Virus record (IMG/VR): IMGVR_UViG_3300035127_000024
Span: 1 to 21,226 of that record
From: a virus
Reading direction: 5' to 3' (one strand)
Length of the DNA: 21,226 bases
The translations under genes were made by a program, and so were the position numbers. This document shows positions 2,830 through 17,961 of this stretch, piece after piece (the stretch's first letter is position 1; each line of letters begins with the position of its first letter). Below the pieces are notes generated by a model, which was given only the letters and a program-made list of their open reading frames with translations, made no database searches and was not told where the DNA came from.

Positions 2830-2833
2830 TTTT

Positions 2834-3088: not shown

Positions 3089-3089
3089 A

Positions 3090-3428
3090 TTAATATTGCC
3101 ATTCTCCATCAACAAAACATGTAAATAAAATAGCTGCACCTCCCGAACCTAACGGGATTGCTGTATCAGCCGCTAATCCAACAATATTTTCTCCGGATTG
3201 AGGGAATATATCCATAACATTTGCCCCGTTGTTCCAGACTTTTTGCCTGGCCCCGGCTGTTGCCGCTTTTAATTTTACGCTGTCTCCTGCTGTCGCCACC
3301 GTAGTTACGTTATTGTCATAAACCGTAAGCTGCGTTGCGTTGGCTTGTCCACCTCCTGCGAAAGCAGTGATTCCGGTAGCCGTACCATTACTGGCAGAGG
3401 ATGACACTCCTATTAGTGTTGTTATCAT
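3090..3428 (-). CDS. Small virion protein, fibre or decoration-like
   Basis: This 112-residue protein is rich in Ala, Gly, Thr and Val with almost no charge, as in beta-rich virion appendages. The stretch NNGANVMDIFPQSGENIVGLA and the Trp-containing end (CFVDGEWQY) resemble small beta-barrel modules found at the tips of phage fibres and in capsid decoration proteins. That is recall of pattern, not a demonstrated homology. Its start overlaps the stop of the preceding gene (ATGA, 3425-3428), so the two are translationally coupled and probably work together. Between the tail genes and the lysis genes, it is most likely a receptor-binding or head-surface protein. Confidence 0.45.
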   Translation of the reverse strand: MITTLIGVSSSASNGTATGITAFAGGGQANATQLTVYDNNVTTVATAGDSVKLKAATAGARQKVWNNGANVMDIFPQSGENIVGLAADTAIPLGSGGAAILFTCFVDGEWQY

Positions 3429-3925
3429 CGCAGTATCGTTACTTGAATTAATGTTCCTGTGGCATTTGCGATCAGAGGATCAACAAGGCCATCCCTGTTT
3501 GTGTTGTAAGCGCTGTTTTTTCCGAAGGTGACAGGAGATCCATTAGGCAGCGTTTCACCATCAATCTCCCCCCACGCATATGGGCTTCCGCCACTGTCTA
3601 AAGGAGGGATGGCAACGCTTAACTCTCTTAAATGAAGGTCTTCAACGGGGATAACATTCGGGGTGGTGCCTGCACTTATGTCTGAAGAAAAAGCCGAATC
3701 AAGTTCAGCATATGTATCGCTTGTGACCCGGGTGACCCTTCTTAATTCGTTATTGGTAAGATCTGTCAGCCAGGAACCTGCACGCATTTCTGTCATAAAC
3801 AAAGTACTTGTTCCTACCACATATTTTCCTTCTGTTTTAATCGTACCGGTTTTGTTGGCGGATGCAGGGACTGCTGCCTTGGCGTTATTGATTGTATAGT
3901 AGAGAGTGTTTTTAGTATTTGCCAT
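3425..3925 (-). CDS. Virion structural protein of unknown function (fibre or appendage)
   Basis: This 166-residue protein has an N-terminal part (NTLYYTINNAKAAVPASANKTG) followed by a module (KYVVGTSTLFMTEMRAGSWL to VTRVTSDTYAELDSAF) that looks like a beta-rich repeat seen in phage structural proteins, where 'VxGxxTxFxxE...GxxL' precedes 'VxxVxSDTxAxL'. It is the first gene of the transcription unit read from the composite promoter at 3947-4012 and is coupled to the 112-residue gene after it. A role as a virion surface or fibre protein is inferred from composition and position. No enzyme motif is visible. Confidence 0.45.
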   Translation of the reverse strand: MANTKNTLYYTINNAKAAVPASANKTGTIKTEGKYVVGTSTLFMTEMRAGSWLTDLTNNELRRVTRVTSDTYAELDSAFSSDISAGTTPNVIPVEDLHLRELSVAIPPLDSGGSPYAWGEIDGETLPNGSPVTFGKNSAYNTNRDGLVDPLIANATGTLIQVTILR

Positions 3926-3941
3926 GATTGATAATTTTGCT

Positions 3942-4016
3942 CATAACAAATTTACCCCACATCACTTATTTAGAATAATTCTAAATAAAGTTGCTTTTCA
4001 TTTAGTTTGCAAGTTT
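3942..4016. repeat. 75-bp repeat, copy A (promoter-bearing)
   Basis: This 75-bp block matches 12812-12886 in the same orientation with about 6 mismatches. Four of them cluster in the 11-bp spacer between the palindrome and the -7 box. The repeat contains the whole composite late promoter and stops where the coding regions begin. Conservation outside the boxes suggests recent duplication or continuing recombination between the copies. Confidence 0.9.
3947..4012 (-). promoter_or_regulatory. Composite late promoter P3 for the fibre-lysis unit
   Basis: On the minus strand: TTGCAAA (4006-4012), 17 bp, a perfect 23-bp palindrome (3966-3988; half-site TTATTTAGAAT around a central base), 11 bp, and the -7 box TAAATTTG (3947-3954). 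Transcription should start near 3940, just before the ATG at 3925. The palindrome covers the place of the -33 element, so the promoter probably depends on, or is blocked by, a dimeric DNA-binding protein. The same arrangement with identical spacing occurs at 12817 and 17896. Confidence 0.7.
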
Positions 4017-4033
4017 TTAGAGAGTCCTCTAAA
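4016..4033. other. Hairpin downstream of the 1265-residue gene
   Basis: TTTAGAG and CTCTAAA form a perfect 7-bp stem with a 4-nt loop, 17 bp after the TAG of the tail gene and just upstream of promoter P3. There is no T run on the minus strand, so it is not a classic terminator. It may mark the 3' end of the tail mRNA. Confidence 0.3.
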
Positions 4034-4049
4034 GGCGTTTTACAGAAGG

Positions 4050-7000
4050 CTATCTGGAGTCCAGGTTATGATAATTCGACATGATATACCTCAAATTCAA
4101 CGCAAACAGCTTATTGTATTGCTGCGGGTTATACCTGAACTTCAGCAAAAACGTTCTGTCTCGCATAGGATCACCATTAATCAAAGGGAAGTTTACGTTA
4201 GGAGTGGTTTCATCCATTCTCACCGGGGCATACTGAACATTCTCGATGGTTGTAAAGTCGTCCTCTATCAGGTTGGATTGCTGGCCGTTTGAAGAGATTA
4301 TCTCGTACACAGCCCACTTATCATCCGAATCAACCTCTATAGACTGCAATATCTTAACATTCATAGGATTATCATTCAAAACCGTCCATACCTCCGAAGG
4401 GGTGAAAGACCCGTAGAACTCATTTTGAGAAGCATTGGTATTGTGAGTATACAAGCCTCCTGTTTTGAAAGAAATAAAATCAATCATATTACCCACCATC
4501 ATTTCTGGAGTAAAACTGTAAAATGTAGAGAAAAAATTATGCTTTTCATTAAATGCCAGGGTAAAAGTGGGAGATGCTAAAATATATTCACTAAACCGAA
4601 CATCATAACAACCATATAAATTAACCTTTGTAGCCGAACTATTAAAAGCCTTGAATTGATTGCTAATAAAGGTATCTTGTCCATACAACTTGCTTATAGG
4701 TGTAAGGCCATCTGTTGAAAGCCTCCAAATCACCCCTCTCCTTACATCAACTCCATATTTTGCATTTCCATAGACAGCAAAACTCTCGGGATAAACCCCG
4801 ATTCCATACTCACCATCGTAATACTTGGCTTGAGGTCGTAAAACGTTTTCAGAGGCCCCTACAGTTATATTACCTTGTAAATCATCATAAATAATCCTGC
4901 TTACCGGCACACTTGCGATCTTAAGCTCCTGGAACATATACAACTCCTGTTTATCCGCATAAAGTTTTTGTATGCTACCATAATTCTGATTATAAGTCTC
5001 ATAATTAGTATCATAGACAGAGCTCAAGCCATTAATAAACGTTTCCGGGATCAGGGCTTCTGAATAATAAACGGTAGTTGGCCTTAATATTCCTTTGTAT
5101 TCTCCCGCTATTATCTCTGACCGGTTGGGCCTTCCAAAATCAGGAGCAACAGAAGAGAAGAAGTTGGAAGCATTGGGCTTTTCAATCCAATAGGTAGCTC
5201 CTCCCGTTGCAGGAGGGGACAATAAATATCTATCATTAGTCCTGAAGGTGTCCCCTCCTATTATCGTTACCTTTGCAGGAGAGGTAATAAGACCTTGCGT
5301 ATTATTGCTTACATCCGCAGGAGACTCAATAACAGCATATTCCCCGATAACAATTGTATAAGGAGCTGAAACACTTACTCCTGTTATTTTTATCCTTACC
5401 TGACCTCCTGAATCCGGAGTATAATATACAAAATCACCAACCTGTCCACTATACGATATACTAGACACCAGCATAGCAATAGCATTACCGCTAGTGCTAG
5501 ATACTTGTGCTACGGTAATTGACTGGTCCTGTATGTTTCCTGTATGAAACCTACGGCCATTAGCATCAGTCTTTATTTTATAGCATTCCCCAATCTCATA
5601 GAGTATATCTGTAGCATTGGAAGAAGGATTAAATATTTCAACAAAAGATACTGTCGTTAATGTAAGGGGAGTATTGATTCCAACTCGCACATCCACATAT
5701 CCTGACCCAGAATTGTACAACAACACATCTTGTTCATTATATGGATACTCATCATCCGTTGCATTGGCAATAAACCTGATCCTGTCTCCTGTCTGATATC
5801 CATAGACTAAAGAAGTTAGGTTGGAGGTATTGTAATTATCCAATGTTGTTAAGTACACCCTTAATCCATCCGCAGCAGAAGGAGCAACCACCCCTCCTGT
5901 GGCAAGGTCAATGTATTCAATATTATCGGTAGGAAATTGAATGTATCGCCCCATCCCTTTATTGTGGCTCATCACTACCTGATAGTGAGAAAATCCTTCA
6001 GGAGGTGCATGATAAATACTTAAGGTAGGATATGTTGTCCATTGTATTTTTTTATAAGTTGATGGAGGAGTATAGTCAGATGAGTTCATGAAAGGCATAT
6101 ACAAAACAGAGCCGTAATAACCGTTTTCAAGACTATCGAACCGATAGTCTCTTATATTGGCTAACCCACTTCTGTTTCCTGCCTCATCGTAATACACAAT
6201 CCCCGTAGTATAAATACCTCCTCCTTTCAAATAAGATTCGACAGGAAATTTTTTATTTTGCTTTCCGGCATATACATTTTCCAGGGCTTCATAATTTATC
6301 GTCAACCTCACGTCTATTTCCACAGGGTCATACCCCTCAAAAATATTCCCATCGGCAAGCCGGTTATTGGGCAATAACTCTTGCGCTTTACTTTTCAATG
6401 GTACGTAATCAAAAAGCTTTGCGCTTTCGGCTGCATTCAAGGGAGCATAATTTCCCTGGTTATAAAAATCAAGAACATACGTTGAATTGTCGGGGATATT
6501 TAGCGCTTCTTTATCCAAATCGGCAATCAACACAAAATCCTCCGAAGACACTTCCTGGGCCGCGACCCTTATACGTGTGACTATACTATTACCTGTAGGA
6601 ACATAAATACGGATCAAATTATCCTGGGAAATAATATCCTCTTTTCCTCCCGTTGTAGTATTGGGAAATACATATTTACTTATTGGAGACCAAGCACTTA
6701 ATTCATAATCATCATAGCCAAACTGCACCTTGAACCGAAAGAGTTTTTTATACAGGTAATTAGTCCTTACATCCACAGAGTCAGGTTTAACCACCGTAAG
6801 GGAAGTTCCAGAGCTAACTATCCTTTGATAGGCATCTCCGGAAGACGCTAGTGCTGACGCATAAAAACTCAAAGTATCTCCTGTTGACATAGGAATATCA
6901 ATAGACAAAGAGATAGTCGCGTAATTAAGCATTTCCCACGTCCTGTTGTTAGGCAATATAGGATCGTTGGTTTGCGTATAACCATAGGTTACCGAATTAC

Positions 7001-7847
7001 TCGATACAACCACTCCATTTTTTAAAATGAATAACAGTCCGGTACCGGTAGGAGCACTTGCCTGGGTATATACATACAAGTCCAGATATGCTACAGTAAG
7101 CGATACCGTCCGAACACCAGTGCTAGCTGCCGTATAAACATACGTCGAGTTATTAAACTCATTGGACGTGTCCAGTACTTCATCTTTAAAAAAGATAATA
7201 GAAGCAGTAGAGGTAATCGGCTGATAAAATGTTCCCACCCTGGCAATCACCCGGGATCCGGTTAACGGAGATTCTGAGTTTAATAGCCACGTATAAGTAG
7301 GGGGACATAACGGAGGCTGCTTGATCCTGTTTAAGATCAATGGATCAAAAGGGAATTTGTATCCATTAACATAATCCCCTTGCATAAACAGCTTTGCCTT
7401 TTGTATGTTTAATTTTCGTGGCTCATTTAAAAAATTTGTCCAATATAAAAGATCATTATTTTCATCCAGCTTGATAATATTAATACCCGTTATAAGGTAA
7501 TTAACATCAAACCTTAATATATTAAGGGTATCCCGGAAAACCTCTTCTATAGTATTGGTAACCTGATCGTACTCTAAAATAAGATGAGCACGATTATCAT
7601 TATGCACAAAGTAATATATTTTTTTTTTTAACTGATATTCTCTTGCACCGATAACCGTATTGACTCCGGAAGGAAGCGTAAAGGTAACAAGGGTATTCCC
7701 GTTAACAGTTTCTATCGCCCCCTCATTGGCGCTCTGTGAGGATAACACACGGACATTCAGACGATATCTGTCCATGCCGGCAGCCAGGTATTCGTCCGCA
7801 GTATCTGAATTTATACCAGAAGTAAATATTTTTTTTTGTGATGCCAT
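4050..7847 (-). CDS. Large tail protein (muzzle / tail barrel-like)
   Basis: This 1265-residue protein is the largest in the window. Its N-terminus (FTSGINSDTADEYLAAG, then NVRVLSSQSANEGAIETVNGN and FTLPSGVNTVIG) has the form of the large tail 'stabilisation' or muzzle proteins of crAss-like and other Bacteroidota podoviruses, which start with an SGxNSD-type motif and an N-x-G-x-x-E-x-x-x-G-N segment. The rest is beta-rich, with many Tyr, Asn and Ser and few Cys. It follows three ring-like proteins and is directly coupled to the last of them (TAA then ATG, no gap). That gene order matches short tails in which stacked rings end in a large distal barrel comparable to T7 gp12. Two long A runs lie in codons 4-7 and about 73-77. 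The family assignment is from remembered sequence patterns; the structural-tail call is firmer than the exact role. Confidence 0.65.
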   Translation of the reverse strand: MASQKKIFTSGINSDTADEYLAAGMDRYRLNVRVLSSQSANEGAIETVNGNTLVTFTLPSGVNTVIGAREYQLKKKIYYFVHNDNRAHLILEYDQVTNTIEEVFRDTLNILRFDVNYLITGINIIKLDENNDLLYWTNFLNEPRKLNIQKAKLFMQGDYVNGYKFPFDPLILNRIKQPPLCPPTYTWLLNSESPLTGSRVIARVGTFYQPITSTASIIFFKDEVLDTSNEFNNSTYVYTAASTGVRTVSLTVAYLDLYVYTQASAPTGTGLLFILKNGVVVSSNSVTYGYTQTNDPILPNNRTWEMLNYATISLSIDIPMSTGDTLSFYASALASSGDAYQRIVSSGTSLTVVKPDSVDVRTNYLYKKLFRFKVQFGYDDYELSAWSPISKYVFPNTTTGGKEDIISQDNLIRIYVPTGNSIVTRIRVAAQEVSSEDFVLIADLDKEALNIPDNSTYVLDFYNQGNYAPLNAAESAKLFDYVPLKSKAQELLPNNRLADGNIFEGYDPVEIDVRLTINYEALENVYAGKQNKKFPVESYLKGGGIYTTGIVYYDEAGNRSGLANIRDYRFDSLENGYYGSVLYMPFMNSSDYTPPSTYKKIQWTTYPTLSIYHAPPEGFSHYQVVMSHNKGMGRYIQFPTDNIEYIDLATGGVVAPSAADGLRVYLTTLDNYNTSNLTSLVYGYQTGDRIRFIANATDDEYPYNEQDVLLYNSGSGYVDVRVGINTPLTLTTVSFVEIFNPSSNATDILYEIGECYKIKTDANGRRFHTGNIQDQSITVAQVSSTSGNAIAMLVSSISYSGQVGDFVYYTPDSGGQVRIKITGVSVSAPYTIVIGEYAVIESPADVSNNTQGLITSPAKVTIIGGDTFRTNDRYLLSPPATGGATYWIEKPNASNFFSSVAPDFGRPNRSEIIAGEYKGILRPTTVYYSEALIPETFINGLSSVYDTNYETYNQNYGSIQKLYADKQELYMFQELKIASVPVSRIIYDDLQGNITVGASENVLRPQAKYYDGEYGIGVYPESFAVYGNAKYGVDVRRGVIWRLSTDGLTPISKLYGQDTFISNQFKAFNSSATKVNLYGCYDVRFSEYILASPTFTLAFNEKHNFFSTFYSFTPEMMVGNMIDFISFKTGGLYTHNTNASQNEFYGSFTPSEVWTVLNDNPMNVKILQSIEVDSDDKWAVYEIISSNGQQSNLIEDDFTTIENVQYAPVRMDETTPNVNFPLINGDPMRDRTFLLKFRYNPQQYNKLFALNLRYIMSNYHNLDSR

Positions 7848-8615
7848 TTACCATTTTGTCGTTGCAACATTACCGGTCCTGAATGCCTCTGCCCATTCTT
7901 TAGGGGTATAAGCCGTAAACCTTCTTCGCGCCCATTTGTCTGCTTTGATATAATCCATTTCTGCCATCTGTTTCTCTCCTAATCCCATTTTTGTATTCCG
8001 CTGTATAGACTTCCAATACAACCATGCCTTTAAGGGTTCTATAAGATAAGGATGTACCTGGAAGTCGCCATTGATAACATTTATATCAGCAATATATTCC
8101 AGTACAAGATTTTGAATATTATAACCAACCCTTTTAATCAAAATCAAACGGTTGTTGATATCAATTTTAAACTCTCCGTCTACATTATTACCTCCTCCTA
8201 TTCCGAAAAACCTACCCACAAGTTCGCCATTCTTCCAGTTCGCGTTATAAGGATAATAAGGATAATAAGTCCCATTAGGAGGGTCAATCCCCTGGTAAAC
8301 ATTCAGCTTTATTTCATCCCCGCAATCATCAAAAACCTTTAACAACGACAACTTATCATTCCTACCTAAAGAATGCATTTGTCCATCGGTCCCAATAATG
8401 CCGATATTGGTATAATCAATAAAGTCAGAAGGCAAATTAGCGGTATCGTTAGAATTAATACTTAAACTTACCACTTTGATGATGCCGTTTTTATCAATGT
8501 TGGCCTCCCGCAAATAAGCAACACCCAATTGATAAAAGCGGGCATACTTATTCTCTCCCGTTTCCCCGGTCTCAATTAAATACTCTTTGATGATATTGTT
8601 TAAAGTATCTGTCAT
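7848..8615 (-). CDS. Tail ring / adaptor-like protein (third of three)
   Basis: This 255-residue protein has an N-terminal helical part (LNNIIKEYLIETGE, ARFYQLGVAYLREANI), a beta segment with LPSDFIDYTNIGI and LVLEYIADI, and a C-terminal helical part (PLKAWLYWKSIQRN to KADKWARRRFTAYTPKEWAEAF). A Pro-Ser-x-Phe turn before a strand, followed by long helices, is the form of phage neck and tail adaptor rings. The three consecutive genes of about 200-250 residues between capsid genes and the large tail protein match the ring proteins of crAss-like phages. It overlaps the preceding gene by ATGA (8612-8615) and abuts the large tail gene. The assignment is by pattern and gene order. Confidence 0.55.
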   Translation of the reverse strand: MTDTLNNIIKEYLIETGETGENKYARFYQLGVAYLREANIDKNGIIKVVSLSINSNDTANLPSDFIDYTNIGIIGTDGQMHSLGRNDKLSLLKVFDDCGDEIKLNVYQGIDPPNGTYYPYYPYNANWKNGELVGRFFGIGGGNNVDGEFKIDINNRLILIKRVGYNIQNLVLEYIADINVINGDFQVHPYLIEPLKAWLYWKSIQRNTKMGLGEKQMAEMDYIKADKWARRRFTAYTPKEWAEAFRTGNVATTKW

Positions 8616-9199
8616 GTAAGTGTGTCAGGCTGTTTCTCCTTTTTATACTGATACTGGCTCATCACCAGGTCTATTATTTCATTGACCATCGTTGATGGGA
8701 TGTTTAACTCTTCATCTACTTCAACCGTATCCACCGCAATGGAGAGCTTTAATGTTATTGGGCCCACCGAGGTTGCTTTGGTCATCTTGTCAAAATAGAT
8801 ACGCCCTCCCTCAACTGTATGGGCCTGCCGCCCTCCCATCCCAAAAGATTTCAATCCACTGAAAAGCCCCAGCGTTCCCGGAGGAAGCCGTATAAATCCT
8901 TGATCCTGAGCATCAGTATACCCCACAAAGCTGATCCCCATCTCATGAGGAAGCGTTAAATACCTTGATGGGAGCTCTACATAATATCTTCCTTGGTCAG
9001 TATCCAGCTGAGCTGAAAGGTTATTAAACACATAAAGTCCACTTCCGTCAACCTCATTGTTTCCTTCCGCATAATTCTCCCACCATTGTTTCTTCGCCAC
9101 ATACGCATAGGCATTACGTACAGCCTCAGCAATCTCCTGAATCGAGCCTTTCCCCGCAATGGAGATGATCTGTTCCGATATTTTTAACAAACTTGTCAC
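8612..9199 (-). CDS. Tail ring / adaptor-like protein (second of three)
   Basis: This 195-residue protein begins with GTG, overlapping the stop of the upstream gene as GTGA (9196-9199), so translation is coupled. The N-terminal helices (LLKISEQIISIAGKGSIQEIAEAVRNAYAYVAKKQWWEN) and the following beta region with LPSRYLTLPHEMGISFVGY resemble head-completion and tail-ring proteins, in which a PSxxxxLP segment precedes a strand. The C-terminus is a helix (PSTMVNEIIDLVMSQYQYKKEK). Together with the genes before and after, it probably builds the stack joining portal to distal tail. The order of the rings cannot be read from sequence. Confidence 0.5.
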   Translation of the reverse strand: MTSLLKISEQIISIAGKGSIQEIAEAVRNAYAYVAKKQWWENYAEGNNEVDGSGLYVFNNLSAQLDTDQGRYYVELPSRYLTLPHEMGISFVGYTDAQDQGFIRLPPGTLGLFSGLKSFGMGGRQAHTVEGGRIYFDKMTKATSVGPITLKLSIAVDTVEVDEELNIPSTMVNEIIDLVMSQYQYKKEKQPDTLT

Positions 9200-9852
9200 A
9201 GTGTACTATTGGTTTGTTGACTGTATAAATTAGCGAACCCTTGCAGATCCCCTTCTCTTAAGTTCATGCCGATCAGCGTTAAATAATGAGCCGCCACATT
9301 GTTAAAGCTATACTGGTCAAACTCAAAATTTGTACTGGTAGTAGCGTCATACACCTCTCTGTTATTGACAACAGTAAACCCCCATACCGGCGCATCGGGA
9401 ACTTTTAAGTAATCCAGGTAGACCGTATGAACGCTTTTGGGCTCAATTAATATTTTAGCTCCCATTAAAGTGAACTTAGGAAAGCGTGTGGTGGGTTTGT
9501 ATAGCGCCGAAGAGAGAACTCTTCCCCAGCTTTCGTTTTTAACCTCATCAGCTCCTACCACTTTCCCTCCGTTTTCACCCACATAATAAGCATCAATGGA
9601 TGATACATGTTGAAAGTTAGAAGGATATGCGATAGAGCCTTTTACATTACTGTAAATCTTACTGGTAATGAACTTAATGAGAAACCGACTTAATTCCTTT
9701 GTTTGTAGAAATGTCTGATAGTCTTTCTCATAGACCAACATCTGCGCCCTGTGCGCCGTTTCATTAAATAAAGTAGGCGTAATAGTCCCCCCAACCTGCG
9801 CCTTGTTCGACACAAATTCCACAAAACGCTTAAAATCATTGACATTAACCAT
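9196..9852 (-). CDS. Tail ring / adaptor-like protein (first of three)
   Basis: This 218-residue protein has N-terminal helices (VNDFKRFVEFVSNKAQVGG, LFNETAHRAQMLVYEKDYQTFLQT), a beta domain (IAYPSNFQHVSSIDAYYVGENG, ILIEPKSVHTVYLDYLKVPDAPVW) and a C-terminal helical end (NNVAAHYLTLIGMNLREGDLQGFANLY). The YPSNF-x-x-V-S-S-I and L-x-Y-L-x-x-P-x-x-P motifs are typical, as I recall them, of crAss-like ring or adaptor proteins. It overlaps the previous gene by one base (TAATG at 9850-9854) and the next by four, so the three ring-like genes are made as a coupled set. Confidence 0.55.
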   Translation of the reverse strand: MVNVNDFKRFVEFVSNKAQVGGTITPTLFNETAHRAQMLVYEKDYQTFLQTKELSRFLIKFITSKIYSNVKGSIAYPSNFQHVSSIDAYYVGENGGKVVGADEVKNESWGRVLSSALYKPTTRFPKFTLMGAKILIEPKSVHTVYLDYLKVPDAPVWGFTVVNNREVYDATTSTNFEFDQYSFNNVAAHYLTLIGMNLREGDLQGFANLYSQQTNSTL

Positions 9853-10196
9853 TATTTAGGAGGTATAAAAAAACCTTTTGACATAATGCAAAAAGCAGCC
9901 GTCATCTTCCTTAACTTTAAATAATCCGTTAGGCTCATCCATTCCTTTGTAAACTTATAAGTCTTCAGCCCAGGCCTGCCTACCATCTCTTTATCTACTA
10001 CTACCGTAAAAGCATCACCATTTAAGCCTGTAATAAATTTATCATCTTCATCCTCTACCACTACCAATGAATTTCTTAGCTTATAGCGCATATGATACTC
10101 ATGGGTACTCGTAGGCACTACAACTCCATCACTGTTTTTATTCCACCATCGTCCGTCTTCAAAAAATATTATTTCAGTGCCTTCTATCGGATTCAT
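9852..10196 (-). CDS. Small virion-module protein of unknown function
   Basis: This 114-residue protein is not recognised. It starts with IEGTEIIFFEDGRWWNK, has an acidic loop (VVVEDEDDKF) and ends with FCIMSKGFFIPPK. There is no signal peptide or membrane helix. It lies between a fibre-like gene and the coupled ring genes, 1 bp after the former and overlapping the latter by one base, so its product is probably needed with the tail proteins. It could be a tail connector or an assembly factor. Confidence 0.4.
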   Translation of the reverse strand: MNPIEGTEIIFFEDGRWWNKNSDGVVVPTSTHEYHMRYKLRNSLVVVEDEDDKFITGLNGDAFTVVVDKEMVGRPGLKTYKFTKEWMSLTDYLKLRKMTAAFCIMSKGFFIPPK

Positions 10197-10197
10197 A

Positions 10198-11208
10198 TTA
10201 AGTTTTAATGTATTTAACAGTTACCTGTACCTTTCCTCCTGCTGTAGTCTTTGCAGTTGTTAACGTCATGTATTCCCCTGCCGCAAAGGTGTTGTTTGCC
10301 GTAGGAGTAGAGGAATAAGCCGTTCCAAAAGCATCCGATGCGGTAAATGTTATTGTGCCCGCAGTCATTGTTGTCCCTGCGTTATCTTTTGGAGTTATGG
10401 TGCCATCATCGGTTGCCGCAATTGCTTTTGTTGCCCTTGCATATATCTTTTCAACCGTACACGGGAAGGGGAACTCAATTTTGTAGTCTCCTTGCTCTCC
10501 CGTTTCAAATGTCACCTCTGCCACCGCAAACCCTCTTTTCAGATCATCTTCTACCTTGGCCACGGTGACATTATCATCCAGTATCATGGCTGTCACCACC
10601 TTGTCATTACCAATCGCAGAAACGCCGGCAGAGCTGAATGTTACATCCCCGCTTTGTGCTACCGATTGTAAGGTCGTTCCGTTTCCAATCAATATATAAC
10701 CGTTCTGAGCCGCATTAAGCTGGGTAACAGCACCGGCTGCCCCTCCTATAATCACATACCCTTGTCCGGTTAAATCGGCTATCTTAGCAACAGGCATTTT
10801 TCCATTCGGGAATGCATCTGCACCCAATGTGCCATCGACAATCTGGCTTCCCCAGATAGAGGGTTGGGAAAAGATATTATAAGGAAATTTACCTATGCTC
10901 CATGCTCCATTATAATAAGTGGCCTCTATTCTCAGGGCAGTCAGAGCCTCCGCATCGGTTAAGTCTGTTCCAAAGAAGCTAACCGTTATCCCTCCACTGG
11001 AATTAGACGTTACGCCTCCGGTGTATATGATATTGAATGTAAGTCCATCATAAGGAGTTCCTGACGCTGAAAATATCATATCAGCGACCAACGTAGCCGC
11101 CGGACTAGCGGTTATAATATATTTACTTACATCCTCTGCTAAATCATATGCTTTAGTACCACCAGCAGCAGTAATATTATACGTATCTATTGTTTCAAAT
11201 TTTGGCAT
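10198..11208 (-). CDS. Fibre-like virion protein
   Basis: This 336-residue protein is low in charge and rich in Gly, Ala, Thr, Ser and Val. It has an N-terminal beta domain (about 1-110), a central repeat-like stretch (GQGYVIIGGAAGAVTQLNA, then NGYILIGNGTTLQSVAQSG, then SGDVTFSSAGVSAIGND) typical of trimeric tail-fibre shafts, and a C-terminal beta domain (about 225-336). The shaft motifs 'GYxxIGxGxxxxxxxxxSGDVTxSxxGV' occur in many phage fibres. It follows the 527-residue appendage gene with a 3-bp gap and probably forms a head or tail fibre with it. The receptor and the attachment point are unknown. Confidence 0.6.
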   Translation of the reverse strand: MPKFETIDTYNITAAGGTKAYDLAEDVSKYIITASPAATLVADMIFSASGTPYDGLTFNIIYTGGVTSNSSGGITVSFFGTDLTDAEALTALRIEATYYNGAWSIGKFPYNIFSQPSIWGSQIVDGTLGADAFPNGKMPVAKIADLTGQGYVIIGGAAGAVTQLNAAQNGYILIGNGTTLQSVAQSGDVTFSSAGVSAIGNDKVVTAMILDDNVTVAKVEDDLKRGFAVAEVTFETGEQGDYKIEFPFPCTVEKIYARATKAIAATDDGTITPKDNAGTTMTAGTITFTASDAFGTAYSSTPTANNTFAAGEYMTLTTAKTTAGGKVQVTVKYIKT

Positions 11209-11211
11209 GAT

Positions 11212-12795
11212 CTAAATGTTATATTTTTTAATGGTGAGAGATATAGCTTGAGTGGTTGTTCCGGGATCCGAAGCCCCTCTTATGCTAAATGTATTTGTCA
11301 GTGTGCCAAGGTTATTAACAGCAAGAGATGCAACATATCCAGTGTAATTACCAACAATAGGCGCTGAAGTAGCAATCTGCCGATTATACGTATACATTAC
11401 AGTTGTAGCGGAGGTTCTCACCAGAAATGCCTTAAATATCAATTTCGACTGTCCCGCGCCAAGATTTGCTCCGGAAGCAACAGAAGAAATGGTTCCATTT
11501 ACAAATATTCCTGCATTAAAAGTGCCAGTACTAGCACCTACAACAAAGGAATCAATCTCAATAGAATCGCCATCATTTGCCAATGTGCCAGCCGGCAATG
11601 TGTATGTTTTTAATGTTTGATAAGAAGCTAAACCTATACCATCGGTAGGAGTGTCTACCGTTACATTATTGGCAAGCAATGTTGATCCACTACTTGCCCC
11701 ATACAGCTTCCATAGGCCTGCAAAATCAGCAGCAGCAGGTGATAAGATCGCTGCTGTTGTGGTTTTTATGGCAATGTAATTAAGGGCAGAATTAAATGTG
11801 GTAGTAAAGCCGGTTCCGGAAGCATCTGAGGCATAAGCGATGTAAGTATAAGAACTGTCTCCATCCGTTCCATTTATCCCCACAACAGTACCAAACCCTG
11901 TAACCTGGGCATTAGCATCGGCACCACAGTCACAATCAGAAGTGCATTCGGTCAGGTTGTATACCTCAGTAATATATTGGTCAACATAATCTGCCTGCCC
12001 ACACTTAATCATCGTATCAATCATCTCCACAAGGCCCATTATCTCGCCAAACTTAGGCCTGTATTCTGTCTCATACCGATAAGGATTAGCAGTCCGGGCA
12101 GCGATGGTCCTGTTGGCATATTCCCTTATGCAGCAGACAATTGAGCAAATAAAGGTACAGTCAACTTTAACCTCTTTAGAGCCATACACAGTATCTTGTA
12201 CTGTTAAGCCATCAGCAAAAGTATATTCTAGTACTGTACTCACCGTTCCGGTCTGAGTACCATTGAAAAAGGTAGCGGTACTTAAAGTTGCGGCAGAGGT
12301 TGTTAGTGAACTAGGGGGGCTTCCGCCATTGGCTCCCTGTGGATAAATAAGTTTTTGTGTCCGGGTCAATGTGCCCGGTGTTACTCCGTTAACAACGTAA
12401 TTGGTAACATCTTCTTGCCCGAATAAAACAGCAACACAATCCACCGTCTGCTCAATAGAGACTGTAGGTGCAACATATTCATTATCATATGTTTGTATAG
12501 CCGTTCCATAAACGACAGCTCCTGTGGCCTGGTCAGCAATCGTATAAGTAATTGTATAAGTCCCTAATTCGGGCGTAAAGGTGATGGTCTGCTGACTTGC
12601 GGATTCGCCGTTGTTTAATTCTATGTCACAATTTGCCGCTGAAAAATCTGTGTTGTCATATATCGTGTCTCCGGAGGGGGACACAATCTTAAAACACCCG
12701 TTATTTCCGGCAGGGATACCAGTAGAAGTATCGGTGAAATCTATCTCTGCCGTGGAAGGAGTCAGATTGAAGGTGGTTAAAAAGCTGATTGCCAT
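11212..12795 (-). CDS. Fibre / appendage protein with Ig-like N-terminus and cysteine-rich centre
   Basis: This 527-residue protein starts at the ATG at 12795. A TTG eight codons upstream opens the frame but lies inside the -7 box of the promoter at 12817-12824, so it cannot be the start. Residues about 1-105 look like an Ig or PKD-type beta sandwich (IDFTDTSTG, FTPELGTYTITYTI). The centre (about 213-290) is helical and cysteine-rich (Cys213, 217, 221, 222, 265, 284, 288, 290). The C-terminal half is a Gly/Thr/Ser-rich beta domain ending AISLTIKKYNI. It is the first gene of the tail transcription unit. The design suggests a surface appendage, probably adhesive. The cysteine cluster is unusual for a phage fibre. 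Confidence 0.55.
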   Translation of the reverse strand: MAISFLTTFNLTPSTAEIDFTDTSTGIPAGNNGCFKIVSPSGDTIYDNTDFSAANCDIELNNGESASQQTITFTPELGTYTITYTIADQATGAVVYGTAIQTYDNEYVAPTVSIEQTVDCVAVLFGQEDVTNYVVNGVTPGTLTRTQKLIYPQGANGGSPPSSLTTSAATLSTATFFNGTQTGTVSTVLEYTFADGLTVQDTVYGSKEVKVDCTFICSIVCCIREYANRTIAARTANPYRYETEYRPKFGEIMGLVEMIDTMIKCGQADYVDQYITEVYNLTECTSDCDCGADANAQVTGFGTVVGINGTDGDSSYTYIAYASDASGTGFTTTFNSALNYIAIKTTTAAILSPAAADFAGLWKLYGASSGSTLLANNVTVDTPTDGIGLASYQTLKTYTLPAGTLANDGDSIEIDSFVVGASTGTFNAGIFVNGTISSVASGANLGAGQSKLIFKAFLVRTSATTVMYTYNRQIATSAPIVGNYTGYVASLAVNNLGTLTNTFSIRGASDPGTTTQAISLTIKKYNI

Positions 12796-12811
12796 TTCAA
12801 GTGGGTTTTTA

Positions 12812-12886
12812 CATAACAAATTTACCCCACCTGCATTATTTAGAATAATTCTAAATAAAGTTGTTTTTCATTTGGTTTGCAAGTTT
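12812..12886. repeat. 75-bp repeat, copy B (promoter-bearing)
   Basis: This block matches 3942-4016 in the same orientation with about 6 mismatches in 75 bp. It holds the composite late promoter of the tail unit. Its outer end carries the TTTG elements that may serve as -33 box for the opposite-strand NinG gene. Confidence 0.9.
12817..12882 (-). promoter_or_regulatory. Composite late promoter P2 for the tail unit
   Basis: On the minus strand: TTGCAAA (12876-12882), 17 bp, a perfect 23-bp palindrome (12836-12858), 11 bp, and the -7 box TAAATTTG (12817-12824). Transcription should begin near 12810, leaving a leader of about 15 nt before the ATG at 12795. Spacing is identical to promoters P1 (17896-17961) and P3 (3947-4012). 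The expected TTTG -33 element is replaced by the palindrome, so regulation by a dimeric protein is likely. Confidence 0.7.
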
Positions 12887-12928
12887 TAATATTGTAGGTT
12901 TGTTCTTATTTAGAACAATTCTAAATAA
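12871..12928 (+). promoter_or_regulatory. Divergent promoter and operator of the NinG operon
   Basis: TTTG (12871-12874), 20 bp and TAGGTTTG (12895-12902) fit a Bacteroidota promoter on the plus strand. The fourth copy of the palindrome (12906-12928, one mismatch between arms) starts 3 bp after the -7 box and covers the transcription start. A protein bound there would block this promoter, while at P2 it sits upstream of the -7 box. The two palindromes in the intergenic region are centred 70 bp apart. Confidence 0.6.
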
Positions 12929-12947
12929 CAAAAACAAAACGCTATAC

Positions 12948-13340
12948 ATGAAGATTAATAAGGCAGACAAGTGGTTCTCTATTTTTATCAGGCTACGGGA
13001 TGCCAATGACGAAGGGTTTTGTAAATGCATTACTTGCGGAAGGATAAAGCACTGGAGGTTACTGGATTGCGGCCATCATATTAAACGACAACATCAAGGG
13101 ACTCGTTATCATGAAAAAAACTGTGCTGCACAATGCAAAGGATGCAATAATTTCGGCCAGGGCGAAGACGCCAAATTCAAAGAAGCGATCATTAAAAAAT
13201 ACGGACAACAGCAATATGATCTATTGGAGGCCTGTAAAAGAACGATATGCAAACGGAGCCAGCTGGAGCGCGATTTACTTGCAGAAGAATATGAGAAAAA
13301 AGCCAGAGCCCTTGCAGCAGAAAAAGGAATAGAAATCTAA
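12948..13340 (+). CDS. ninG: NinG/Rap-like recombination endonuclease
   Basis: This 130-residue protein belongs, by motif, to the phage lambda NinG (Rap) family, structure-specific DNA endonucleases acting on recombination intermediates. Visible motifs are a zinc-ribbon pair Cys27-x2-Cys30 (CITCGR), CGHHIKR (Cys41, His43, His44), TRYHEKNC, and Cys63-x2-Cys66 followed by Asn-Asn (QCKGCNN), then a KKYG motif and a basic helical end. The open frame extends upstream to 12861, but that stretch contains the promoter and operator. The ATG at 12948, 20 bp after the palindrome, is the credible start. It is transcribed against the surrounding virion genes together with the next gene, 8 bp downstream. 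Confidence 0.8.
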   Translation: MKINKADKWFSIFIRLRDANDEGFCKCITCGRIKHWRLLDCGHHIKRQHQGTRYHEKNCAAQCKGCNNFGQGEDAKFKEAIIKKYGQQQYDLLEACKRTICKRSQLERDLLAEEYEKKARALAAEKGIEI

Positions 13341-13348
13341 AATATACG

Positions 13349-13627
13349 ATGGGAAAATCCGATAAAGTATTTGTTAAAGTAAAAATCCATCAGTTTGATG
13401 ATATCCCTTCGGCGCGACAATCCAAAAAATATCCCTTTGACAAACTGGAAGTAGGCCAGGGGTTTGAAATCGACCGGGCCGACTGGCAACATTTAACCGC
13501 TGCTCAAAAGATGGTAAAGTTTAACGGATATGTTACCTACTACAATAAAGCCAGAGGAAGCTTAATGGGTAAGCACTTCGTTCAACGAATAATCGACGAA
13601 AGACTTTTTGTAATACGGGTGGAATAA
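13349..13627 (+). CDS. Small phage protein with a KKYPF-x-x-L-x-VG motif, unknown function
   Basis: This 92-residue protein contains KKYPFDKLEVGQGFEI, a motif I recall from a family of small phage proteins of unknown function found in early or DNA-metabolism operons. The rest has AAQKMVKFNGYVTYYNK and a C-terminal strand LFVIRVE. There are no cysteines, signal peptide or membrane helix. It is co-transcribed with ninG (8-bp gap). A DNA-binding or recombination accessory role is only a guess from the partner gene. Confidence 0.55.
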   Translation: MGKSDKVFVKVKIHQFDDIPSARQSKKYPFDKLEVGQGFEIDRADWQHLTAAQKMVKFNGYVTYYNKARGSLMGKHFVQRIIDERLFVIRVE

Positions 13628-13649
13628 TTTTCAGAAACTAATCCAACCA

Positions 13650-13883
13650 TTACAGATTATTATCATTAAGAAATTTGCAGATAGCTTCCATTCGTTTATT
13701 ATTAGCGGCAACCCATTCCTTTGTGCCCTTTTCTCCTAATTGTTCAATCTCGTGATCTTCTGGAAGATACGCGCTTATAATCCCAACTGTATACCCTTCG
13801 ATATCAGTCGTTTTTGCAATTTGCGTATGAATATTGCCAAATGTCACTAAAACGTATTGATTTTTAGCTTCTTCTTTTGCCAT
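13650..13883 (-). CDS. 77-residue hypothetical protein
   Basis: This soluble 77-residue protein (MAKEEAKNQYVLVTFGN, YTVGIISAYLPEDHEIEQLG, MEAICKFLNDNNL) is not recognised. It looks like a small alpha/beta protein with a beta-rich first half and a helical end. It has its own -7 box and lies between a terminator on one side and the convergent plus-strand operon on the other (22-bp gap), so it is expressed apart from the head genes. An independent small gene set among late genes is typical of phage 'morons', which often serve lysogeny or defence; that is inference. Confidence 0.5.
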   Translation of the reverse strand: MAKEEAKNQYVLVTFGNIHTQIAKTTDIEGYTVGIISAYLPEDHEIEQLGEKGTKEWVAANNKRMEAICKFLNDNNL

Positions 13884-13904
13884 AGCTAAAGGTCGATTTT
13901 AATA

Positions 13905-13912
13905 CAAATATA
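13905..13912 (-). promoter_or_regulatory. -7 box for the 77-residue gene
   Basis: TATATTTG on the minus strand lies 21 bp upstream of the ATG at 13883 and directly after the terminator hairpin. No TTTG is found at the -33 distance, where the hairpin stem lies instead. The palindrome of the late promoters is absent, so control differs from the virion units. Confidence 0.45.
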
Positions 13913-13917
13913 CAAAT

Positions 13918-13943
13918 AAGAAGTTCCCCGAAGGGAACTTCTT
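13918..13943 (-). terminator. UUCG-loop terminator after the head operon
   Basis: On the minus strand an 11-bp perfect stem (AAGAAGTTCCC / GGGAACTTCTT) is capped by the very stable TTCG tetraloop and followed by ATTTGTATATTTG. It lies about 45 bp after the stop of the 377-residue gene and should end the scaffold-capsid transcript. The T tract is imperfect, so some read-through is possible. Confidence 0.7.
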
Positions 13944-13985
13944 ACCGACCGGGGACACCCCAATCCAAAATCAGGATAACTATAA

Positions 13986-15119
13986 TTAAGCTCCTTCCGC
14001 TTGTTTTTGCATTAAGGCTACCAGGTTGCTGTCAGACTGCATGGCATCCATGAGCTCTTTCTTACGATATTTCTTATCGTTATACTTCCACCAGGAAGGA
14101 CCTATTTTCTCTATCACCCCCTGCTCATGAAATTCATTGAACATCGCCTCTGCCGTTATGTTGTCAATACCGGTAAAAGATATCTGTGGCTCTTCCGTAG
14201 AAGAAACCGGTGGAGCTATTTTCTCCGGATTGGGCATTAACTGCCGCGAGATCTCCGCCATTAATCCGGACCCTTGTTCTGTAAAGGAAGCTTCTATCAT
14301 ATAGTCCAGTGGATCAGTACCCATTGGCGCTATCACAATTTCCCTTCCGGTATTGCCCCACTTCATTCTGTTGTTCTGTTTATCAACCACCAGAATATCC
14401 ATGTCAATAGCATCCAAGGCAATTCCTTTTCGAATCAATCTTTCGTCCTTTCTATTATTCATAAAACGCGCAGGATCCAGCATGGCTTCTGTTAAAAGCT
14501 CCCAGCGCAATTGCTGAACACTTTTACCAACCACCCATGAGGTACCTTTTAACGCCCGGCTAAAGCGGATAATATCATTGGGAAGTGCATTGTGACACCA
14601 CGCTTTCGCCTCTTCCCGGACGGTATCTTTATCAATAGCTTCCCTGAAGACAGCTTCTTTATCAAATAGATAATAACCTCCCGGCTTCTCTGTTATTTTA
14701 TGCGGATTATTTACATTCCAGTTGCTTTTAAACATATAGTCCAAAAGCGTCCATTCGTCTCCGGAAACAATCCTCACTCCCCGCTCAAACTTGATTTTGT
14801 AATCATGTTTATTCTCCTTGGCTATGTCCGACATTTCATCGTGATAGATGGTGGTCTCTCCCGGGATATAACGGATTGCCCTTCGCATCCTTTTTCTTTC
14901 ATCAAAAATTATATCTGAACTGGGAATTTTTTCTAAAGGAGGATAGTAAAGCGGTTGCCCACCTTCTCCTCTTTCATCTGCTCCGGTTAGCATCGAAGGT
15001 TTTTCGTTTCTTTTCACACTTACAAAGGTGAATTTTTTGCCAATACAAGCTTGTTGCCCTGCCTGGTAATCGGCATAAGTGCCCTGGTCAGTAGATGACC
15101 TTAGAGATGTTGTTTTCAT
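13986..15119 (-). CDS. Head-associated protein of unknown function (377 residues)
   Basis: This 377-residue protein is mixed alpha/beta and charged, quite unlike the fibre genes. Segments include KFTFVSVKRNEKPSMLTG, a tract with FERGVRIVSGDEWTLLDYMF, and a C-terminal domain (about 315-377: NITAEAMFNEFHEQGVIEKIG, WWKYNDKKYRKKELMDAM) that looks like a small helical or winged-helix fold. The loop before it is Pro/Glu-rich. It is the last gene of the scaffold-capsid unit, separated from the capsid gene by a hairpin, and its A-rich leader repeats that of the scaffold gene. Its place suggests an abundant head or internal protein. The C-terminal domain could instead bind DNA or the portal. I do not recognise the family with certainty. 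Confidence 0.45.
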   Translation of the reverse strand: MKTTSLRSSTDQGTYADYQAGQQACIGKKFTFVSVKRNEKPSMLTGADERGEGGQPLYYPPLEKIPSSDIIFDERKRMRRAIRYIPGETTIYHDEMSDIAKENKHDYKIKFERGVRIVSGDEWTLLDYMFKSNWNVNNPHKITEKPGGYYLFDKEAVFREAIDKDTVREEAKAWCHNALPNDIIRFSRALKGTSWVVGKSVQQLRWELLTEAMLDPARFMNNRKDERLIRKGIALDAIDMDILVVDKQNNRMKWGNTGREIVIAPMGTDPLDYMIEASFTEQGSGLMAEISRQLMPNPEKIAPPVSSTEEPQISFTGIDNITAEAMFNEFHEQGVIEKIGPSWWKYNDKKYRKKELMDAMQSDSNLVALMQKQAEGA

Positions 15120-15148
15120 TGTGTTTTATTGTATTATATTAAAAAGAT

Positions 15149-15175
15149 AAGCAGCGCGGATGATCCGCGCTGCTT
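15149..15175. other. Perfect 13-bp hairpin between the capsid and 377-residue genes
   Basis: AAGCAGCGCGGAT pairs with ATCCGCGCTGCTT around one base, so the real loop would be about 3-5 nt. It is very GC-rich for this genome and lies 7 bp after the capsid stop. On the minus strand it is followed by ATCTTTTTAATA, so it can act as a partial terminator or as a 3' stabiliser of the capsid mRNA, raising capsid over the following gene. Confidence 0.7.
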
Positions 15176-15182
15176 TAAGTGT

Positions 15183-16619
15183 TTATGATCCTTGCAAGAA
15201 GGCATAAGCATTAGGACGGAAACCCTGGAACCCAAAGTGTGTCCTGTAGTTGATATCCAACTTATCGAGAGTTGTGTTGTTAACAGGTCCGTTAGAACCA
15301 ATCAACCACTCACGGAACTCGCGGTCATATTCTCCGTTTTTCACGTAATTCATACGCAGCGCCGGAGTTTCAATTTTCTCCATATTCGTCCCTTCTCTTG
15401 CTGACCCATAATCCATAGGAATAAACACTCCCATATTTTGGTATTTAGTGGTGTTTCCTAAATAAGAAGGATTATTCAACAGGTTGTAAGTTTTTAAGTG
15501 GAAAGTATATCCCAAATGCTCAAACCCGCTAAATCCGAAATTCACATATTGGTCTTTACCACCGCCAAACATTCCGTATACAACGGCTCCTGCCTGCATC
15601 TCCGGACGGATAAACGCATCAATAGATTGACGCAACCGGATAGAGCACCATCCTGAATACTCCATAGATCCTTTGTTTTTATCAATCTGATCTATTATCA
15701 TGTCTTCAAAGTCACTCAAGGTCACGCCAGGAGTAATGTTGTAATTGGTGGTTCCATTATAGCTTTGTGCAAACGAAAACAAACCTTTTGTTTTTAAGAG
15801 TGTTGCATCGTATGTCGCCAAAGCGCTAGTGTTATCCACTTCTTCTCCAGTTACAAAAGAGATTTCTCTTTGATTCAGGATTTGTTTACGGGAATCATTC
15901 TGGTTTTTGAAAAACCATACTTTTCCTGTTGTTCCATTTCCATCATCAAAATCCGTCCATGTTTGTTCTCCCAGTGCAGAACCGGTAGAAGATGCTGTTT
16001 CTGCAAGAATCTCCATTACCCCGGTAATCACATTTAAACGGAAGTTCATTGGATCTGGCTGATCGCCACCCTCACCGTTTACGATACCGCCCAAACGAAT
16101 AGGCTCCGCGCCTGTTTGTGTTGGACACACATAAGAAGCCCCGATTTTATCCGGTGCCACGGTAAATGTAGTGGTGGTTCTTGCTGTCACCGTCCCTTTA
16201 ATTCCAGTACTAAACTCTACAGTCTGATTAACACGAACCGGGTTTAGCGTTGTTGTGCCACCAGCATTAGGAGCTGCTGTTCCTGCTGCTGCTGCAATAT
16301 AAGGATCGTAGGTTGCCGGATAACTTGTAATTGTTGAATTTGAAAGCGTATAAACTACTGCTGCTCCGGATGCCCCTGCTGTGCCGGTAGCATACACGAC
16401 AGCGTTCAGACGGTCTTCTTCAAAATGACGAAATGTAAGCCCTGGAACAGGGTGTTTTCCCCCTCCGACCATATCTAACATTCCTGTAACGTCCTGGTTA
16501 CCGAAAGCCTTAATAACATCCGGATTGTTTTGCGGCATCAGCATGTTATATGCTGAAGACGAGCTGATCCAGTTATTTGATGTAGCAATCTGTACATTGC
16601 TTGGTTGTAATCCTGCCAT
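15183..16619 (-). CDS. Major capsid protein
   Basis: This 478-residue protein is the probable HK97-fold capsid subunit. It follows portal and scaffold-like genes and has the usual length. The N-terminal part contains LMPQNNPDVIKAFGNQDVTG and TFRHFEEDRLN, an insertion-like beta stretch follows (about 80-190, Thr/Gly/Ala-rich), then a helical spine-like region (SDFEDMIIDQIDKNK, SIRLRQSIDAFIRPEM). The conserved C-terminal third (FSGFEHLGYTFHLKTYNLL, GVFIPMDYGSA, LDINYRTHFGFQGFRPNAY) resembles capsid proteins of crAss-like and other Bacteroidota podoviruses. It has many Gly and Asn residues and a single Cys. It starts 26 bp after the scaffold-like gene. A strong hairpin follows it, as is common for the most abundant virion protein. 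Confidence 0.82.
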   Translation of the reverse strand: MAGLQPSNVQIATSNNWISSSSAYNMLMPQNNPDVIKAFGNQDVTGMLDMVGGGKHPVPGLTFRHFEEDRLNAVVYATGTAGASGAAVVYTLSNSTITSYPATYDPYIAAAAGTAAPNAGGTTTLNPVRVNQTVEFSTGIKGTVTARTTTTFTVAPDKIGASYVCPTQTGAEPIRLGGIVNGEGGDQPDPMNFRLNVITGVMEILAETASSTGSALGEQTWTDFDDGNGTTGKVWFFKNQNDSRKQILNQREISFVTGEEVDNTSALATYDATLLKTKGLFSFAQSYNGTTNYNITPGVTLSDFEDMIIDQIDKNKGSMEYSGWCSIRLRQSIDAFIRPEMQAGAVVYGMFGGGKDQYVNFGFSGFEHLGYTFHLKTYNLLNNPSYLGNTTKYQNMGVFIPMDYGSAREGTNMEKIETPALRMNYVKNGEYDREFREWLIGSNGPVNNTTLDKLDINYRTHFGFQGFRPNAYAFLQGS

Positions 16620-16645
16620 GATTTTAAATCTTTAAAGCGTTAATA

Positions 16646-17872
16646 TTATTTGCCCGGAAACATTGCGTTCATTAAGTTTTTCGCAGTTTTTTCCTGAGCT
16701 GTTTCTTTTTTAGTGTCCACAGATCTTCCATCGGTTTTAAAGTTGATATTCTTAATTCTTTTAATCTCCTCTTTAGCACCTACGGCCCTGTAGTTTTTGG
16801 CGATTAACTTCAAAATATCTTCACGGTTCTCCCTTAACACAAGGGTCTCGTAAATTGCTTTAAAGTCATATTCACCACGGTCATTTTTAAACAGATTCCA
16901 AAAAGCATTGACATCTGTTCTCATTTCCTTCACTACCTCAGAAATCTTCTGTTGGGTAGCCTGGGGAATTTCAAAGTCAAATATGTCTTCGCCTTTATCA
17001 TCTATGGGACTTGACAACTTCGGAGTTTTAGAGATAATTTCATTCTCCACAAAATCATCCCATTCTTCTTTCTGTTTCTGAGCAGCTTGTTCAGCTTCTC
17101 TTCGTTCAGCTTCAGTGGGTTGTTTTGGTGAGAAAGAAGTCTTTTGTTGCAGTTCCAGTAATCTTTCCCGTTCCATCTCCGCATCGCGTTCGAAACGTTT
17201 CCTGGCTAACAACTCTCTTTTATCTCTTTCCTCTGCGTTCTCTGACCATTCGTCCCTTCTATATTTGTCATCCAGCTCCAGCATTAACTCCTCGCGGGAA
17301 TAACCCTTGTATTCCGGATTTAAAGACATCGCCTCTAAATGGACCTGTTCGGGTGTTAATTTGCTAAAGTCACTGGACTTTAAATACCAAAATTGTTCAT
17401 CAAGCTTTCCTCCTCCCTTCACATATTCATTCAGTTGCTTAATTTCTTCGCTTGCATAAGCAGGCTGCTGGCTCTGTGCAGCTTCCACTATTTCACTAAT
17501 GCTTTTAAACTTTCCTCCTGTCTCCTTTGCTATCCTTTCAGCATATAGTTCATCAAAACTTTTTTCAGGAGCATCGTCTTTCTTTCCACCTTCCGGTTCA
17601 TTGTTTGAAGCAGCCGCTTCTTTTAATCGCTCTTCCTCCTCCAGCTTCTCTTTAAGTTCTATATCCTCAGCACTTGGCTGTGATTCTTCTCCCGGTTCTG
17701 TAGATTCTTCCTTCGGCGGTTCCTCTTTTGGAGGTTCTTCCTTCGGCGGTTCCTCTTTCGGGGGTTCTTCTTTTGGTGCTTCCGCTGCTGGAGGATTATT
17801 ATCTGATGCAGGAGGATTATCACCTGATCCCCCTACTGCTTTTCTCATTAATTCTTCTACAGTAGTCGTCAT
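16646..17872 (-). CDS. Scaffold-like protein
   Basis: This 408-residue protein starts at the ATG at 17872 (MTTTVEELM). A longer frame begins at 17911, but the -7 box at 17896-17903 lies inside those extra codons, so that start cannot be used. The N-terminal quarter is disordered and acidic with five PKEEP-type repeats (residues 33-56). The middle is a long, highly charged helical region (ELMLELDDKYRRDEWSENAEER to EAEQAAQKQKEEWDDFV), and the C-terminus is helical and basic (KKETAQEKTAKNLMNAMF). An acidic, helical, low-complexity protein encoded between portal and capsid is the classic place of a scaffolding protein, which directs capsid assembly and then leaves. It is the first gene of the unit under promoter P1. 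No protease is seen in the window. Confidence 0.65.
   Translation of the reverse strand: MTTTVEELMRKAVGGSGDNPPASDNNPPAAEAPKEEPPKEEPPKEEPPKEEPPKEESTEPGEESQPSAEDIELKEKLEEEERLKEAAASNNEPEGGKKDDAPEKSFDELYAERIAKETGGKFKSISEIVEAAQSQQPAYASEEIKQLNEYVKGGGKLDEQFWYLKSSDFSKLTPEQVHLEAMSLNPEYKGYSREELMLELDDKYRRDEWSENAEERDKRELLARKRFERDAEMERERLLELQQKTSFSPKQPTEAERREAEQAAQKQKEEWDDFVENEIISKTPKLSSPIDDKGEDIFDFEIPQATQQKISEVVKEMRTDVNAFWNLFKNDRGEYDFKAIYETLVLRENREDILKLIAKNYRAVGAKEEIKRIKNINFKTDGRSVDTKKETAQEKTAKNLMNAMFPGK
17705..17776. repeat. 15-bp in-frame tandem repeat in the scaffold-like gene
   Basis: About five copies of a 15-bp unit encode PKEEP repeats in the disordered N-terminal part. Unit sequences differ at third positions (for example cggcggt versus tggaggt), so it is not a fresh slippage product, but the copy number could still vary between relatives. 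Confidence 0.85.
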
Positions 17873-17895
17873 TGTTTTATTGTATTGTTTTAAAG

Positions 17896-17961
17896 CAAAA
17901 TTAAATGTCATTTTTTATTTAGAATCATTCTAAATAACATTCATTTGCAATTTTTTTGCAA
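17896..17961 (-). promoter_or_regulatory. Composite late promoter P1 for the scaffold-capsid unit
   Basis: On the minus strand: TTGCAAA (17955-17961), 17 bp, the 23-bp palindrome (17915-17937; perfect arms with a C-G difference only at the centre), 11 bp, and the -7 box TAATTTTG (17896-17903). A second TTGCAAA lies closer, at 17944-17950. The element sits in the gap between the portal stop and the scaffold-like gene, allowing extra capsid mRNA over portal mRNA. The flanks are unlike copies P2 and P3, so the conserved parts here are likely the functional ones. Confidence 0.7.

Follow-up and report, generated by a model that had tools for sequence, protein, structure and literature searches.

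Host Fur boxes are predicted at the structural and lysis promoters of Bacteroidota phages

Introduction

Phage genes under the control of host iron regulators have been described before, Fur control being known for a single phage gene, stx1. In Shiga-toxin phages, the stx1 promoter carries a Fur box between its -35 and -10 elements and is expressed in low iron (PMC10042803), and in Corynebacterium glutamicum, DtxR binds promoters of the prophages CGP3 and CGP4 (PMC12327846). On a plasmid, the colicin Ib promoter is held by a double lock of LexA and Fur (PMC4675545). Among Bacteroidota, the Fur box of Riemerella anatipestifer has been published as 5'-ATTTAGAATTATTCTAAAT-3', and purified Fur gel-shifts promoter fragments carrying such boxes (PMC5609570); at a variant box at rhuB, Fur binding is Fe2+ dependent, and loss of fur or a shortage of iron relieves the repression of rhuB (PMC10986502). 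In the current study, we analyzed a 21,226-nucleotide stretch of viral DNA (IMG/VR record IMGVR_UViG_3300035127_000024, positions 1 to 21,226; here called the window) in which a 23-bp palindrome, TTATTTAGAATNATTCTAAATAA, precedes the structural and lysis operons of a phage. We read this palindrome as the Fur box of the bacterial host, and we consider it likely, from its sequence and placement, that host Fur-Fe(II) represses these operons and that iron limitation releases them.

The window shares with the Fur regulon of R. anatipestifer and other Bacteroidota the 19-bp core, the -7/-33 promoters, and a box near the start codon (PMC5609570, PMC10986502). There, however, the targets are chromosomal genes of iron and heme uptake, whereas here they are head, tail, lysis, and ninG units of a phage. 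As at stx1, late-region phage genes are predicted to be under repression by host Fur, but stx1 is a lone toxin gene carried as cargo and transcribed from a separate promoter, and the low iron in which it is expressed does not bring about lysis, whereas the boxes described here stand before virion and lysis operons in several lineages. The CGP3 and CGP4 prophages likewise "eavesdrop" on the iron state of the host through a host iron regulator, although that regulator belongs to another family with another motif, and its targets are mostly hypothetical genes with no identified structural operons. Colicin Ib is, similarly, a trait of the release type that a mobile element carries and host Fur keeps in check, but it is a plasmid toxin and not a matter of phage morphogenesis. 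We found no open-access report of Fur-controlled phage structural or lysis operons, or of several Bacteroidota lineages sharing such control (most subscription journals lay outside the search), and the placing of whole virion operons under Fur appears to be new.

Results

The palindrome occurs exactly at positions 3966-3988, 12836-12858, and 17915-17937 of the window, and each of these minus-strand copies is separated by 11 bp from a -7 box of the form TAnnTTTG. A further copy with one mismatch lies at 12906-12928 and had been overlooked in a preliminary description of this DNA. No matches are expected by chance (mean, 0.00 in 100 dinucleotide shuffles, allowing ≤3 mismatches). The features are as follows.

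17915-17937, minus strand: putative Fur-box palindrome 1, over the -33 region; minus-strand sequence TTATTTAGAATGATTCTAAATAA
17896-17903, minus strand: -7 box TAATTTTG, 11 bp after palindrome 1
12836-12858, minus strand: putative Fur-box palindrome 2, with the exact 19-mer ATTTAGAATTATTCTAAAT inside
12817-12824, minus strand: -7 box TAAATTTG, 11 bp after palindrome 2
3966-3988, minus strand: putative Fur-box palindrome 3, with the exact 19-mer ATTTAGAATTATTCTAAAT inside
3947-3954, minus strand: -7 box TAAATTTG, 11 bp after palindrome 3
12895-12902, plus strand: -7 box TAGGTTTG of a divergent plus-strand unit
12906-12928, plus strand: fourth palindrome (one mismatch), 3 bp after the plus-strand -7 box

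The preliminary description had reported three composite late promoters of invariant spacing, with the palindrome over the -33 region. The coordinates, the spacings, and the position over -33 were all reproduced when re-checked in the window. However, the promoters of copies 2 and 3 (12812-12887 and 3942-4017) are 92% identical across 76 nt and are one promoter cassette, recently duplicated inside one phage, so the three invariant spacings count as two independent observations. An upstream TTGCAAA had also been assigned to the module. It occurs twice upstream of copy 1, but its frequency in the window is that of chance (7 occurrences versus 7.5 expected) and it is present in 0 of 73 comparable IMG/VR composite promoters; we therefore do not count it as part of the module. 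The fourth palindrome overlies the point at which transcription of the ninG unit is expected to begin, which is the position of a repressor.

The published R. anatipestifer box matches the inner 19 bp of copies 2 and 3 at 19/19 positions and that of copy 1 at 18/19, the center base alone differing. In Genome Taxonomy Database (GTDB) genomes, the exact 23-mer was found in at least 119 stretches, mostly of Bacteroidota and some of Streptococcus. Among the 102 genomic open reading frames (ORFs) beside it (prophage-like spacings left out), 12 to 14 encode TonB siderophore or heme receptors, and others encode HmuY, DUF4856 proteins, glutamyl-tRNA reductase (hemA), cytochromes c, solute-binding proteins, and FUR. 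In the genome of Flavobacterium sp. 1355, which encodes a canonical Fur, near-matches adjoin three TonB receptors, hemA, and a pyridoxal phosphate (PLP) decarboxylase. The window palindromes also overlap their promoters (-7 TAnnTTTG) in the manner of Bacteroidota Fur boxes. Because the 19-bp core matches the Fur consensus and the host neighbors are iron and heme genes, we read the palindrome as the host's Fur box and not as a private operator of the phage.

One alternative is that another Fur-family protein of the host, PerR or Zur, is the main reader, in which case the signal would be peroxide or zinc and not iron. Boxes of the 7-1-7 type are common to members of the family, the hosts also carry a second Fur-family gene, and the 23-mer lies upstream of P-type ATPases in Streptococcus as well, where PerR controls a P-type ATPase gene of this kind. 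On the other hand, the Bacteroidota neighbors serve the uptake of iron and heme, and binding to such boxes has been shown for Fur itself; we regard a PerR- or Zur-based signal as improbable. In the Streptococcus stretches (L128, L170, L172, and L224), the 23-mer adjoins heavy-metal P-type ATPase-family ORFs that are ca. 60% identical to one another, and there it is probably a PerR site, one Fur-family box thus being common to two phyla.

The putative Fur box is by no means confined to the window. The exact 23-mer is present in at least 118 IMG/VR stretches, versus 0 for a permuted half-site palindrome of the same composition. Its core, TTTAGAATNATTCTAAA, is followed by TAnnTTTG at a distance (d) of 10 to 15 bp in 83 stretches, compared with 24 at 3 to 8 bp and 12 at 17 to 22 bp, and the spacing is therefore specific. 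Distinct composite promoters with the 10- to 15-bp spacing number 73, of which 35 have exactly 12 bp; at d = 12, 24 were observed against a background of 0.26 per position, and these promoters lack a TTG at -33. The ORFs behind 60 of the 73 promoters fall into 12 unrelated groups, which include phrog_5824, tail fibers, and the portal families phrog_12, phrog_2662, phrog_5929, and phrog_2271, although a few (e.g., a 266-amino-acid group, L243 and kin) may not represent phage promoters. Several unrelated Bacteroidota phage lineages carry the box ahead of head, portal, and tail-fiber genes. In a phage region of Flavobacterium sp. 1355, the head and tail-fiber genes are preceded by boxes that have 0 and 1 mismatch; the order runs terminase, portal, a first box, phrog_5824, the major head protein, later structural genes, a second box, and the tail fiber. 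Both this region and the window have a box between portal and head genes, and their portal families differ (phrog_64 versus phrog_6547). In one genome, G041, the phage boxes appear stronger than the host boxes; the genomes were selected by exact matches, so we make no claim of this. A division between temperate and lytic phages was considered and set aside: integrases or recombinases were encoded by 14/20 long box-bearing records, yet also by 2/5 isolates without the box.

Peptide-pattern searches with the window portal gave nothing in IMG/VR or in 395 Bacteroidota genomes, and relatives of the window phage were therefore reached through the palindrome alone. Relative 3300033148_001982 has a portal 46% identical and a major capsid protein (MCP) 47% identical to those of the window phage; for relative 3300033067_002245, portal identity is 38%. 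In both, boxes precede the portal gene as well as the homologues of those window genes that follow palindromes 1 and 2. The preliminary description had named absence of the motif before the same genes in related phages as grounds for abandoning its claim; in these two relatives, the palindrome stands there. At the homologous genes, the spacing is 12 to 13 bp in 3300033148_001982, 5 bp in 3300033067_002245, and 11 bp in the window; overall, the values are 11, 11, and 11 in the window, 5 (five times) in G442, and 7, 12, 12, and 13 in G020. Relatives of the window phage (L338 to L342, from G020 and G442) also encode GroES-like co-chaperonins, four proteins matching Cpn10.

The window itself is a phage fragment with a tyrosine integrase, a P22-like portal, an MCP, tail genes, a tail-fiber-like gene, a CHAP endolysin, and NinG, that is, a podovirus-like phage of temperate type. 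The genes behind the boxes are listed below, preceded by the integrase.

160-1290, plus strand: tyrosine integrase of a temperate-type phage
16646-17872, minus strand: first gene of unit 1, behind palindrome 1 and adjoining the MCP gene; 408 amino acids, a probable scaffold by position
15183-16619, minus strand: virion structural protein/MCP, unit 1
13986-15119, minus strand: further gene of unit 1
11212-12795, minus strand: first gene of unit 2, behind palindrome 2; 527 amino acids, start at 12795
2380-3925, minus strand: unit 3, behind palindrome 3, start at 3925; tail-fiber-like gene (3425-3925), two small genes, and CHAP endolysin (2380-2829)
12948-13340, plus strand: NinG-like gene, behind the fourth palindrome

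Unit 2 extends through tail and virion genes to position 4050, and unit 3 probably continues to 1287. The first gene of unit 1 contains in-frame 15/30-nt repeats at 17696-17822 that encode a Pro/Glu/Lys-rich stretch (EEPPKEEPPK). A strong terminator-like hairpin at 13946-13915 (minus strand) is followed directly by TATATTTG at 13905-13912, upstream of the gene at 13650-13883, and this is possibly a promoter without a Fur box.

Discussion

The preliminary description proposed regulated late promoters in a Bacteroidota phage. This analysis supports the proposal, the units concerned being structural and lysis ones, and it favors control by repression; the activator that had been allowed as an alternative is disfavored. 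Palindromes lie over the start site not only in the window (12906) but also at L343:18488 and L344:17894, and one -7 box is sandwiched between two palindromes (L343:18452/18488). Together with the shift of 6 to 8 bp between relatives, these positions favor repression. We envisage that in an iron-replete host, Fur-Fe(II) on the 23-bp site would block RNA polymerase by covering either the start site or the -33 region; under iron shortage, or once Fur is inactivated, Fur would depart, and the host polymerase could then transcribe the structural and lysis genes from the TAnnTTTG promoters. Fur binding, repression, and an iron response of these phages are thus what we infer from sequence, and such phages probably tie virus production to the iron supply of the host.

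Activation is one alternative to this scheme. T4 MotA and lambda CII serve activator-dependent middle or late phage promoters, in which the operator likewise takes the place of the -33/-35 element, and a bound host Fur or a phage regulator might recruit RNA polymerase in the same way. At -33, the d = 12 promoters lack a TTG and carry the palindrome instead, and the gap is nearly constant within each phage (11 bp three times in the window, 5 bp five times in G442). Across relatives, however, the fixed operator position relative to -7 that marks an activator promoter is not seen: the same genes have d = 5 in one phage and 11 to 13 in others, a difference of more than half a helical turn, and the overall scatter is 10 to 15 bp. 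A contact-dependent activator would hardly tolerate a shift of 6 to 8 bp, and activation is therefore disfavored. Moreover, some copies are located at the -7 box or beyond it, and the Flavobacteriales host boxes with the same sequence are published repressor sites. We judge activation to be unlikely. No phage-encoded activator was recognized in the two relatives or seen in the window, itself a fragment.

The regulator that the preliminary description expected to be found in the phage is, by our reading, host Fur. No Fur-family protein (PF01475) was detected in any of 40 box-carrying phage records, a phage-encoded Fur being set aside on this ground, and no Fur-like protein was detected among the scanned proteins of the 21-kb window fragment. 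All three host genomes examined, in contrast, encode Fur. The absence of the regulator from the phage and its presence in the host are as in stx1- and tox-type control, but the controlled genes here are structural and lysis genes, not cargo. A phage regulator outside the Fur family could in principle have evolved onto the same palindrome; temperate phages usually have their own control of late genes, and the window and several other records are fragments. Yet the same 22 specified bases would then have had to emerge both in the iron regulon of the host and in phages unrelated to one another, and Pfam hits to 85 proteins of the two relatives included no common transcription factor, which makes this a very unlikely course of events. 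Least probable, in our opinion, is that the boxes are decoys, which would sequester host Fur so that the infected cell's iron uptake is derepressed, and would play no part in transcribing the phage: multicopy Fur boxes do titrate Fur, and the phage copies are nearly perfect palindromes, but they number only 2 to 7 per genome, form no arrays, and keep a fixed distance to the -7 boxes in front of structural operons.

Several observations weigh against control of phage operons by host Fur. The 11- to 15-bp geometry is found at 38/110 viral but only 10/112 genomic sites (P = 3e-6; several of those ten are prophages), and this preference of phages over host boxes argues against the phage promoters being plain copies of host ones and could reflect wiring specific to phages. 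A paralogue of the PerR type may recognize a site of this kind, given the Streptococcus matches at P-type ATPases. Finally, among distant cultured relatives, phi38:1, elemoE, phi13:2, Gundel_1, RAP44, PT33, PJN03, BS-TP2, and Porphyromonas phage 005b have no sites at ≤3 mismatches, and Nekkels_1 has just two weak palindrome matches; control through the box is therefore not universal.

Bacteroidota dominate in gut, soil, and sea, and little is known of what triggers the induction of their prophages. If host Fur does hold these operons, iron supply would set the timing of phage production, and release would be coupled to the moment at which neighboring cells display the most iron (TonB) receptors. 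An anonymous phage palindrome would also become a searchable marker for iron-controlled phages. A broader and more tentative possibility, for which we see rather less than an even chance, is that unrelated Bacteroidota phages have independently placed their particle, tail-fiber, and lysis operons under host Fur, with iron starvation, during which cells nearby also make more TonB receptors, giving general permission for virus production; the switch might be reinforced by titration of Fur as the phage genome replicates.

In a siphovirus group that carries the box, a conserved membrane-type protein of 65 to 80 amino acids has a His-rich segment (HHHHHEHK or HYHEHK) and is possibly metal related (L011:2611-2850, L022:3975-4187, L072:262-498, L150:3256-3468, and kin). 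Its gene is divergent from the tail-fiber promoter and has a TAnnTTTG of its own, 32 bp from the shared Fur box.

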